Shown piece by piece: positions 41,886 to 62,336 of a stretch of 64,000 nt of DNA. Origin of the DNA: Planotetraspora silvatica (GTDB taxonomy: Bacteria; Actinomycetota; Actinomycetes; Streptosporangiales; Streptosporangiaceae); assembly GCF_016863315.1 (NCBI RefSeq), contig NZ_BOOQ01000001.1, positions 1 to 64,000 of the forward strand, read 5' to 3'. The notes under the pieces were generated by a model, which saw only the letters and a program-made list of their open reading frames with translations, ran no database searches and was not told the origin of the DNA. A program made the position numbers and the translations under genes. Every line of letters begins with the position of its first letter. The stretch's first letter is position 1.

Positions 41886-41959
<74 letters not shown>

Positions 41960-59707: not shown

Positions 59708-60133
59708 TCAGGCCGCTATGTTCCGGATCGCGACGACCCGGTCGATCCTCAGCCTGACGAGCAGTTCGCCCGGCACGCCGTTGCGCTCGCCGAACTCCCC
59801 GGCCCTGTCCTGGCCCATGTAGCGGCCGCCGATCACGGACGCCCACTTGATCAGGTCGTCGAGGTCGGACGAGATGGTCACCTCACCCTCGATCATGACG
59901 AAGGCGTACGGAGCGCGGTCGTCGTCGACGCACAGGGTCGCCCGGGGATCACGCTGGAGCGCCTTCCCCTTCACGCCGGTCTCGCCGGTGTTGAACACCA
60001 CGTCGTCGCCGTCGAGGACGAACCAGATAGGGGTCACATGGGGCCGGCCGTCCGCACGGGCGACCGCCAGCTTCCCGGTCCGGGTACCCGTCATCACGAA
60101 CTCGCGCCACTCGGCATCCGTCATGACTTCCAT
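59708..60133 (-). CDS. PPOX-class F420-dependent oxidoreductase
   Basis: 141 residues. Split-barrel flavin-reductase fold of the pyridoxamine-phosphate-oxidase type: FVMTGTRTGKLAVARADGRP with HVTPIWFVLDGDDVVFNTGE, then ALQRDPRATLCVDDDRAPYA and FVMIEGEVTI. Members use F420 or haem. The start may be the ATG at 60133 or 60124. A large inverted repeat array begins 31 bp upstream. Confidence 0.85.
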   Translation of the reverse strand: MEVMTDAEWREFVMTGTRTGKLAVARADGRPHVTPIWFVLDGDDVVFNTGETGVKGKALQRDPRATLCVDDDRAPYAFVMIEGEVTISSDLDDLIKWASVIGGRYMGQDRAGEFGERNGVPGELLVRLRIDRVVAIRNIAA

Positions 60134-60163: not shown

Positions 60164-60559
60164 GTGATCATGCACCCCTTCGGCGATTGCCGCGCCGACC
60201 GGCGCAAACCTGGGCCGTGATCATGCACGGATTCGGTGATCAGGTCGGCGAGCAGGGCGAACGCCTTTCGTGATCATGCACGGATTCGCTGGCATGGCCG
60301 ATGACCAGGCACGATGACTTTCGTGATCGTGCAGACAATCCTCAGACTCGCCCTTGCCTTGCCGGAATTGCATGATCACGAAGTGATTCCGCGCTGGTCA
60401 GGTGGCGCCTCTCCGAATCCGTGCATGATCACGGACGATGTTTCCGCAGGTCAGGTGCCCTGTGGGCGAATCTATGCATGATCACGCCGGGTGTTGGCGC
60501 AGGTCGGCGTGGCAGTGGCCGAACCTGTGCATGATCACGCGAGAGTTGTGCATGATCAC
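60164..60559. repeat. Dyad array of 53-bp repeat units (GTGATCATGCAC)
   Basis: GTGATCATGCAC or a close variant heads units at 60164, 60217, 60270 and 60323 on the plus strand, exactly 53 bp apart. Its complement heads units that end at 60379, 60432, 60485 and 60538, again exactly 53 bp apart. Matching units on the two sides are all symmetric about 60351. A ninth copy lies at 60548-60559. The first forward unit and the last reverse unit share 28 of 41 positions after the head, and several units share GGATTCG and TGACC.GCGC. The array occupies almost all of the 442-bp gap between the PPOX and TPP-enzyme genes. Confidence 0.85.
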
Positions 60560-60575
60560 GAGGGGGGTTGGGGGG

Positions 60576-62336
60576 TCAGTGGCCGCGGAAGGCTTCTTCG
60601 AGCCACCAGGCGCCCTTGTCGGCCGTCACCTTGGCGTGGACCACCAGGGGCTTGTCCCTCGGGCCCTTGAGCCACTCGGCGACGTCCGCCAGATCGGCCC
60701 TCTCCCGTACGGCGACAGCCTCACAGCCGAACCCTCGCGCGATCCCGGCGATGTCCACCGGCGGGAACCTGACCGTGTCGAGCGGGAACCCGTCAGGCCC
60801 GAAATGGTGCACCTCGGCCCCGTAACCCTGGTCGTCGTAGACCACGACCACCATGGGGATGCCCAGCCGTACGACCGTCTCGAGCTCTCCGACGCTCATC
60901 AGCAGGCCGCCGTCGCCCAGCGCGGCGACGGGCAGCCGGTCAGGCCGGGCCAGCGCCGCCCCGATGGCGGTGGCCAGGCCGAGCCCGACCGACTGGAACG
61001 CCTGGGTGAAGCAGAAACCGCTTCCGTCGGGGACCGACATGAACATCGTCGGGTACCCCATGAAGTTGCCCGAGTCGATGGACACGATCCTCTCCTCGGG
61101 CAGGAGATCGTCCAGCTCGATCGACAATGTCCGGGGGTCGATCCGGCCGTCTCCGCTCAGATCCTCGTACGGAACATCCCGCCAGCGGACCTCACTGGCG
61201 ATCCGCCCGGCGAGCTCGGGGCTGCGATAGCCGGTCGTCGCCTCACCGGGCTCAGCCGGAGCCAGCAGGGCGCCCACCGTCCGCGCGATCTCCCGCACGT
61301 CTCCGACCACGCCCAGGTCGACCGGGCGGTTGACACCGACGGCGTCGGGGTCGATCTCGACCTGGACGACCTTGGCGTCCGGCCCGATGAGCGTGCCGTG
61401 CCGCGTGGTCCACATCGTGAAGGAGCAGCCCCATCCGACGACGAGGTCGGCCGCGCCGATGAGCTCCGCCGCCAGCGGGGACGCGAACCCGCCGCTCACG
61501 TCAAGATCCCACGGGCTGCCGTGGAAGTGCCCCTTCGCGACCGCCGAGGTCGCGAACAGCGCGCCGACGCGTTCCCCCAGCGCCTCGAGTTCCTTGCGGG
61601 AGCCGCGCGCGCCGCGTCCCGCCACGAACACCGGACGCTCCGCGGCCGCCAGCAGGCCCGCCAGCTCCGCCACGGCTCCGGAGACGCCGGGGCCCCCGCT
61701 CGGCGAGCCCGAGGCGATCGGCTCCTCCGCGTTGGACTCCTGTACGCCCGGAAAGGTCAGACCCCATGGAGGCGGGACGAGGCCCGCCGCCTCCTGGCGC
61801 CTGCTCCCCCGTCCCGCGCGCAGTTCCTGTACGGCGTGCACGACGTCGTCGGGCAACTCTTCGGCCTGGACGTCGAGGGGCAGGTTGAGCAGCACCGTAC
61901 GGCGGCCGAGCAGGGCGGCGAGGTAGGCCATGACCGTGTCGTCCACCACGGTCTCCGCCGAGCCCACCCTGGCCCCGTGCGCGCCGACGGCGGCCGCGAG
62001 CGCGGCCTGGTCGATCCGGAAGTTCGAGCGCGGCGAGGTGGCCTCGGCGGCCAGGACCAGCAGAGGTGTGCGGCTCTTGGCGGCCTCGGTGACGCCGGTC
62101 AGGGCGTTGGTGAGACCGGGCCCCTGGTGCACGCTGAGCACCGCGACGGTGCCGCTCATCCGCGAATAGGCGTCCGCCATGGTGGCGGCGCCGCCCTCGT
62201 GCCGTGCAGCGACGTAGCGGACGCCCTGCTCGGTCAGGGCGTTGGTCACGTGGAAGTTGCCGCTCCCGACGACGCCGAAGGCCGCGCGGACGCCCAAAGA
62301 GGCGAGCACGGTGCCGACGGCCTCCGCGACGTTCAT
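60576..62336 (-). CDS. Thiamine-diphosphate-dependent enzyme (acetolactate synthase-like)
   Basis: 586 residues. N-terminal PYR domain with the catalytic Glu in AARHEGGAATMADAYSR, central domain (PVFVAGRGARGSRKELEALG) and C-terminal PP domain with the ThDP motif GDGGLLMSVGELETVVRLGI continuing to YDDQGYGAEVHHFG. Canonical family members have NN where this has DD before QGYG. It could be a 2-oxo-acid decarboxylase or carboligase rather than a biosynthetic acetolactate synthase, since no small subunit is encoded. Its ATG overlaps the stop of the cyclase-family gene. Confidence 0.85.
   Translation of the reverse strand: MNVAEAVGTVLASLGVRAAFGVVGSGNFHVTNALTEQGVRYVAARHEGGAATMADAYSRMSGTVAVLSVHQGPGLTNALTGVTEAAKSRTPLLVLAAEATSPRSNFRIDQAALAAAVGAHGARVGSAETVVDDTVMAYLAALLGRRTVLLNLPLDVQAEELPDDVVHAVQELRAGRGSRRQEAAGLVPPPWGLTFPGVQESNAEEPIASGSPSGGPGVSGAVAELAGLLAAAERPVFVAGRGARGSRKELEALGERVGALFATSAVAKGHFHGSPWDLDVSGGFASPLAAELIGAADLVVGWGCSFTMWTTRHGTLIGPDAKVVQVEIDPDAVGVNRPVDLGVVGDVREIARTVGALLAPAEPGEATTGYRSPELAGRIASEVRWRDVPYEDLSGDGRIDPRTLSIELDDLLPEERIVSIDSGNFMGYPTMFMSVPDGSGFCFTQAFQSVGLGLATAIGAALARPDRLPVAALGDGGLLMSVGELETVVRLGIPMVVVVYDDQGYGAEVHHFGPDGFPLDTVRFPPVDIAGIARGFGCEAVAVRERADLADVAEWLKGPRDKPLVVHAKVTADKGAWWLEEAFRGH

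Follow-up and report, generated by a model that had tools for sequence, protein, structure and literature searches.

The array of repeated sites described here, from Planotetraspora silvatica, belongs to a real and widespread class of phased DNA site arrays at gene ends, apparently undescribed as far as our searches show (no published description of such phased arrays was found in the open-access literature searched). Read directly from the genomes compared are the family itself, the phasing of its sites, their preference for gene 3' ends, their conservation, a lineage-specific extension of the core together with a consensus switch, and the lack of RNA-type covariation. The best explanation we can offer for these features, which we rate just below an even chance, is that the arrays are phased binding platforms for a candidate sequence-specific protein and act as transcript-end boundaries. 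The window analysed is a stretch of 64,000 nucleotides (contig NZ_BOOQ01000001.1, positions 1 to 64,000), and the array lies near its right end.

A symmetric array between two genes

By direct reading of the cores, the window array consists of four forward and four reverse copies with a 53-bp period and a dyad at 60351, in agreement with the eight copies, the spacing and the centre of symmetry given in the initial annotation. The forward half-array (60164-60334, + strand) holds four units with cores at 60164, 60217, 60270 and 60323, in steps of 53 bp; the first three 12-mers are exact and the one at 60323 is GTGATCGTGCAG, with two mismatches. The four units of the reverse half-array (60368-60538, - strand) have their 12-mers at 60368, 60421, 60474 and 60527, again in steps of 53 bp, exact at 60421 and 60527 and with one mismatch each at 60368 and 60474. 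All mirrored core pairs are centred on 60351, inside a centre of 33 bp (60335-60367, without strand) that separates the innermost 12-mers; this length differs among arrays, the commonest being 13 bp between 11-mers (16 of 68). The outer arms of the window array are 79% complementary over 73 nt. The ninth copy, described earlier as breaking the spacing at the right end, is indeed an extra terminal core (60548-60559, - strand), placed 21 bp, or two helical turns, from its neighbour and outside the 53-bp register; five distinct cases of such 21-bp steps occur in Planotetraspora.

The array occupies most of the intergenic gap between two genes, and the context first read from the letters alone, a PPOX gene next to a TPP enzyme, was borne out by Pfam. 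On the right, the stop codon of a TPP-dependent enzyme gene (60576-62336, - strand; PF02776, PF00205 and PF02775) abuts the array, 16 bp away, with a C-rich tract on the sense strand of this gene (60560-60575, - strand) between the stop codon and the first core. The start codon of this gene is a placement by a simple codon-usage caller, and the open frame extends to 62594; the reverse half-array is the sense half relative to it. On the left, a PNPOx-fold gene (59708-60133, - strand; PF01243) faces the array with its start, the outer edge of the forward half-array lying 30 bp from its ATG at 60133. No Rfam family matched the array at gathering score when the window was searched, the sole match being a tRNA gene (41886-41959, - strand).

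With up to two mismatches allowed, the 11-mer matches 33 times in the window; 100 shuffles average 13.25 matches and never exceed 21. The window array is non-random: chance is excluded by the 53-bp spacing together with the genome-wide counts of the 12-mer, of which there are 360 + 338 exact copies in the 8.66-Mb genome and 0 + 0 of the reversed control word.

A family of arrays in Planotetraspora

A genome-wide motif search had been proposed in the initial annotation, and it uncovered, behind this repeated 12-mer, a family of arrays. We located 23 of them in the 839,464 bases (839 kb) of the window genome examined, about one per 36 kb: 12 two-sided (usually four to five forward copies followed by four to five reverse ones), 6 reverse-only and 5 forward-only. 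Extrapolation from the exact-copy count and this density gives an estimated 150-240 arrays per genome. A second member (contig C1, 65640-66140) lies 1.6 kb past the right end of the window, between convergent genes, and has four forward and six reverse copies. A scan of named genomes returned at least 98 stretches, mostly from Planotetraspora, with a few from Actinomadura, Microbispora, strain NEAU-GS5 and unrelated genomes.

Spacing is strict within the genus: of 639 distinct steps between neighbouring same-strand cores no more than 120 bp apart, 551 measure exactly 53 bp, 34 measure 52 bp and 9 measure 54, with minor groups at 21, 30-31, 42, 62 and 95. The unit profile, built by a chain search limited to steps of 52-54 bp and their doubles (220 distinct halves; 567 + 37 + 9 steps), begins with a nearly invariant core, GTGATCATGCA, which has A in 89% at position 11. 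Positions 12-15 form a variable extension, followed by a TTCG box at 16-19, a YGACCTGC box at 33-40, weaker preferences at 45-48 and a C at 53. Outer cores are mostly exact and inner ones looser, and between different arrays the spacer columns have little in common (mean identity 0.345). The second box, in the form YGACCTGCGC (unit columns 33-42; window 60164-60538), resembles a degenerate core about 31 bp, or three turns, behind the first, and units may on this account hold two sites.

These features also bear on what the array had been said not to be. A CRISPR array has near-identical repeats of about 24-47 bp, in one orientation, with unrelated spacers; here the core is 11 bp, both orientations are used and boxes are conserved in the spacer, and the earlier judgement that the array is neither a slippage product nor a CRISPR array holds.

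Arrays beyond the genus

Across 297 Streptosporangiaceae genomes, abundance of the core CGTGATC[A/T]TGCA is confined to a scattered set. Microbispora-like genomes (g79) and group g48 use steps of 53 bp, genome G070 steps of 41-42 bp, the g64 genomes (including Actinomadura alba) mixed shorter steps, and groups g62 and g39 have single inverted pairs. The 53-bp pair pattern was found in 5 of 394 genomes of the class, two in the family plus G329, G388 and G447 in three other families; raised core counts are seen in these and also in G327 and G535. Conserved 53-bp phasing elsewhere, named beforehand as support for a functional element, is thus strongly evident across Planotetraspora and other genera. 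The distant arrays share the plan of the Planotetraspora ones, with GTGATC[A/T]TGCA followed by an extension of their own and cores often placed behind a stop codon and a C-rich tract.

In G329, G388 and the Actinomadura-type genomes, 64 of 68 distinct spacings fall at 31-38, 41-47, 51-55 or 62-64, and the distant arrays favour whole helical turns. In a scan of 7-16 bp the best period for the 68 spacings is 10.0 (nR2 14.2, reached by 0 of 500 jittered controls), and when the 51-54 steps used to find the G329 and G388 loci are removed the remaining 51 spacings give a best period of 10.5 (nR2 7.1, 1 of 500 controls), in both cases with steps from one array entering as non-independent values.

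A motif-agnostic search of 100 kb each gave one single-word coding match in G155, one intergenic match in G121 and none in G151, and in 100 kb of G202 it gave one array plus other repeats, against three arrays found by core search. The same search picked up a coding tandem repeat with a 21/42-bp period in G202 (contig C1, about 99.4 kb). A near-perfect 43-bp tandem repeat in a Myxococcales MAG (positions 837-1061 of locus L059), unrelated to the family, also contains the core word. Distant blastn returned no array match in phages or plasmids; core pair matches in viral contigs amount to three stretches (L342-L344) on two IMG/VR contigs.

Arrays lie mostly behind genes

Placement was examined for 52 arrays from three species, with orthologous arrays counted together and all genes called with one simple codon-usage caller. 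The set comprises 25 two-sided, 16 reverse-only and 11 forward-only arrays, so that 27 of the 52 have no partner half within 400 bp. Of the 77 outer edges in Planotetraspora, 57 are turned towards the 3' end of a gene, with a median gap of 17 nt, and in 13 of these 57 the TGA of GTGATC coincides with the position of the stop codon; the other 20 face a gene 5' end, at a median of 86 nt. At least one gene 3' end is touched by 43 of the 52 arrays and none by 9. The arrays are extragenic, just two of them overlapping a called gene by more than 30 bp. They are also enriched between convergent genes, which the two-sided arrays favour: among gaps of at least 150 bp on contigs C1 and C2 of the window genome, 10 of 25 convergent gaps hold an array versus 12 of 176 others (Fisher p 3.6e-5). 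Outside the genus, 37 of 50 outer edges face a gene 3' end and 13 a 5' end, G329 being weak by itself (7 of 12 facing a 3' end). No common factor emerged among ten neighbours of arrays that are exceptions to the 3'-end rule or stand in odd contexts; these neighbours are enzymes, a membrane protein, an AAA/SMC-like protein, an IclR-type regulator and one protein without a family.

Ahead of the first core lie 30 nt that are rich in C and poor in G (C 0.487, G 0.21; 217 halves); after 268 gene ends without an array, the initial 30 nt have C 0.36-0.39 and G 0.33-0.34. Rho-dependent terminators are marked by RNA of this C-rich, G-poor kind following the stop codon, and the flanks of the arrays bear the mark. 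The mark of an intrinsic terminator is a stable hairpin behind the stop codon, and strong hairpins within 120 nt of the stop were found at 5 of 38 gene ends with an array versus 59 of 165 without (Fisher p 0.004), pooling the window genome (3 of 26 versus 43 of a sample of 120) and G136 (2 of 12 versus 16 of 45). The contrast is modest, with one-sided rank-test p values of 0.05 in the window genome and 0.03 in G136, and is absent from two small, distant sets outside the pooled count (G388, 2 of 9 versus 1 of 4; G329, 0 of 4 versus 3 of 9).

Taken together, the scarcer hairpins, the C-rich flank and a polar position following stop codons suggest that the arrays could be an alternative to hairpins for ending or insulating transcripts.

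Probable constraint on the DNA rather than on an RNA hairpin

The dyad had been suggested to form a long hairpin RNA or a cruciform. For the window array the folding part of this suggestion stands, since the array alone folds as a long RNA hairpin (z -8.9), as expected of an inverted repeat. It does not extend to the family, where 27 of 52 arrays are one-sided, convincing covariation is lacking and mirrored units are no closer to each other than neighbours. In 467 non-redundant units, values of mutual information above 0.064 are confined to columns 1-3 apart, with a few weaker values at columns 7-9 apart (42-51, 12-19) slightly above the null maximum of 0.051, and we found no convincing pair covariation within units. 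An imperfectly palindromic hairpin unit of the REP/BIME kind is not what these column links describe. Identity between mirrored units is 0.394 versus 0.417 between neighbours of the same half (random 0.343-0.345), which rules against selection for a long hairpin, and yet many arrays have innermost forward and reverse cores with 11 bp of complementarity.

Antisense halves are as intact as sense halves, with 0.23 versus 0.23 mismatches per core and 4.2 versus 4.1 copies, in nine two-sided arrays that lie between tandem genes in three species, some of them orthologous. Because covariation is not convincing and antisense halves are equally intact, the data point to a double-stranded-DNA element.

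Conservation, switch and probable loss among relatives

Of 28 comparisons with closer species in which both flanks mapped in sampled DNA (P. kaengkrachanensis 15, P. mira 13), 27 gaps keep an array of the same type, one has another type and none is empty. Copy number drifts between conserved orthologous arrays. In matched units, the core is 98% identical and columns 20-32 are 60% identical in P. kaengkrachanensis (69 of 93 units matched, 24 unmatched); in P. mira the values are 97% and 83% (74 of 82 matched, 8 unmatched). At the larger distance of P. thailandica, 17 comparisons, which represent 11 arrays and several target genomes, gave the same type in 9, another type in 2 and absence in 6. 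Seen as an empty-site test for a MITE or transposon, absence is 0 of 28 between the closer species and 6 of 17 at the larger distance.

The initial annotation had also called for comparing the PPOX/TPP-enzyme gap in related genomes, and P. mira, P. kaengkrachanensis and P. thailandica all proved to have the window array. In P. phitsanulokensis (locus L229) the PNPOx-fold gene has been inverted with respect to the TPP gene, single cores being left at the borders. No support was found for the earlier idea of a recombination site.

In P. thailandica (L044, L231 and other loci), positions 12-14 are GAA in 113 of 126 units; the other species compared have mostly CAG, CAC or CGG there, and GAA lies outside their commonest 4-5 variants listed. 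Whole-unit copying explains this switch poorly because the spacers of different arrays are little alike; a trans-acting factor with a changed taste would account for a switch across the genome.

In one Microbispora-like genus, 4 of 15 species carry 46-209 cores and the other 11 carry 2-8. At one locus an array is common to the four bearers, and four array-poor relatives have 51-164 bp without a core. Trees of the flanks (about 1.2-1.5 kb) intermingle bearers and non-bearers; therefore, whole array sets were probably lost more than once among these relatives. An apparent loss of the whole set in close relatives is seen in G115, G170, G226 and G155 when set against G136. Six of eight G136 arrays could be mapped in the array-free G115, where five of the gaps are 63-160 bp without a core and one is 1,004 bp. 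Replacement of the array by a hairpin terminator does not describe these gaps, as a hairpin stronger than composition predicts (mononucleotide shuffles) occurs in just 2 of the 5 core-free ones.

Candidate binding proteins

Of the functions first listed for the dyad, a multi-site protein-binding array is the one that the evidence favours. We found no binding protein; RAYT and ArgR were examined as candidates across genomes and neither was supported. The RAYT (Y1 transposase) family PF01797 is present in 9 of 20 genomes and its distribution does not follow the arrays: no Y1/RAYT match was found in the other 11, nine of which have raised core counts, namely the window genome (G000), P. phitsanulokensis (G002), P. 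kaengkrachanensis (G003), P. mira (G004), G078, G070, G202, G231 and G069. Transposon cargo between separated forward and reverse halves is likewise not indicated, the four intervening genes tested being ordinary host genes for CobD/CbiB, a TypA/BipA-type GTPase, a nuclease-fold protein of the MTES_1575/DUF559 family and a histidine phosphatase, with the L102 interval outside this set.

ArgR was considered since PMC5839063 lists, as shifted by this protein, a Streptomyces coelicolor fragment whose predicted box includes CCGTGATCATGCAC; the ARG box is described there as an imperfect palindrome of up to 20 nt, occurring singly or in contiguous pairs. Among the open-access papers searched, the exact 12-mer occurs in this one and in one on yeast. 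A single ArgR match is the rule whether or not a genome bears arrays (29 of 32 genomes have one), and among the 32 genomes searched no ArgR was found in the array-bearing G102, G069 and G108. Between the window genome and P. thailandica (G001), the DNA-binding domain of ArgR differs at 2 of 67 residues despite the switched unit consensus, and what we take to be the helix reading DNA is unchanged. Neither the presence of ArgR nor its binding domain tracks the arrays, and an ArgR operator is not a description that fits them.

Discussion

We consider it probable that the arrays are protein platforms on DNA. Whether they end or insulate transcription is a more tentative matter, on which we are nearly balanced and lean slightly against. 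We infer that one protein binds the arrays and that the row it forms halts RNA polymerase leaving the gene or helps to release it. A sequence-specific protein would dock on each 53-bp unit, which carries the core, the TTCG box and the YGACCTGC box. Spacing the cores by whole turns would align the bound molecules on one face of the DNA, within touching distance, in an oriented row that usually starts right behind the stop codon of a gene. Such a row could serve as a roadblock terminator or insulator, perhaps assisted by loading of Rho on the C-rich tract, and two-sided arrays would serve both directions of transcription. The window array would then close the TPP-enzyme gene and separate it from the PNPOx-fold gene.

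The arrays could instead be sites of topology or chromosome organisation, at which a nucleoid protein or a recruiter of topoisomerase or SMC would handle supercoils between convergent genes and leave termination unaffected. The preference for convergent genes, the two-sided symmetry of 25 of the 52 arrays, a frequency of one per about 36 kb in the DNA sampled and a constraint acting at the DNA level all agree with this reading, but the 27 one-sided arrays and the fact that arrays begin at the stop codon or close to it suit a polar role at transcript ends better, and it does not predict the lower hairpin content at array ends; we regard it as unlikely, if well worth keeping in mind. Another reading is an RNA element of the 3'-UTR, in which the sense transcript or a two-sided hairpin would be bound or cut and so set the ends or the stability of the mRNA. 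To this we give little credence: the sense orientation behind stop codons, the fold of the window array and the 11-bp complementarity of the innermost cores speak for it, whereas antisense halves are preserved equally, pairs do not covary convincingly, one-sided arrays have no partner arm nearby and helical phasing would be purposeless in RNA.

A selfish, copy-spreading repeat family of the REP/BIME kind, landing in tolerated places behind genes, would explain the patchy distribution, the lineage-specific extensions, the location and the gain or loss in 6 of the 17 larger-distance comparisons. It sits badly with type and orientation kept in 27 of 28 gaps between closer species, with a spacing maintained although spacers differ between arrays, with the missing Y1/RAYT match in genomes rich in cores and with the ordinary host genes found between separated halves, and we think it improbable. 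As for binding of the cores by ArgR, the arginine repressor, the resemblance to an ARG box is that of the predicted box with CCGTGATCATGCAC in the one shifted fragment (PMC5839063), and the one ArgR match per genome regardless of arrays, the bearers in which none was found and a binding domain that hardly changed while the unit consensus switched make it very improbable indeed.

If a protein does form rows on these arrays as proposed, some Actinobacteria would end or insulate transcripts at many loci by DNA-bound protein rows and not by RNA hairpins. With somewhat less confidence than in this transcript-end role, we suggest a general, undescribed boundary system in which helix-phased polar protein rows behind gene ends replace hairpin terminators and site and protein co-evolve; in such a system the sites of a whole genome can switch consensus together, as in P. 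thailandica, or the set can vanish, as in the Microbispora relatives. It would be compact, polar and often symmetric, and its home is in soil bacteria, whose closely related array-poor species would provide natural controls; the genome-wide switch would allow a direct test of how a protein co-evolves with hundreds of dispersed sites. The arrays may also yield well-defined insulators for genetic engineering.

Comparison with known systems

The arrays share with ARG boxes the core word inside the predicted box of one ArgR-shifted fragment, but those boxes are single or in contiguous pairs (PMC5839063), and neither the distribution of ArgR nor its binding domain follows the arrays. From actinobacterial intrinsic or Rho-dependent terminators the arrays differ in having fewer strong hairpins than array-free ends and in their long arrays of sequence-specific cores. 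Such terminators lie behind the stop codon, as the arrays do, and the C-rich sense flank is a further likeness.

In enterobacteria, REP/BIME elements occur in hundreds of extragenic copies behind genes, in inverted orientation and in excess between convergent genes. The arrays resemble them in all of these, with many extragenic copies behind genes, inverted orientation and a convergent-gene excess, but show no hairpin covariation and no consistent RAYT association, are phased by whole turns over up to 10 copies and keep their positions between related species. In eukaryotes, TTF-I Sal-box terminator arrays and Reb1 roadblock terminators place repeated protein sites behind a gene, where polymerase is stopped in a polar manner. 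The arrays differ from these in being bacterial and in occupying, by extrapolation, about 150-240 loci per genome; the likeness lies in the proposed logic only, that of repeated sites behind a gene and a polar stop to polymerase.
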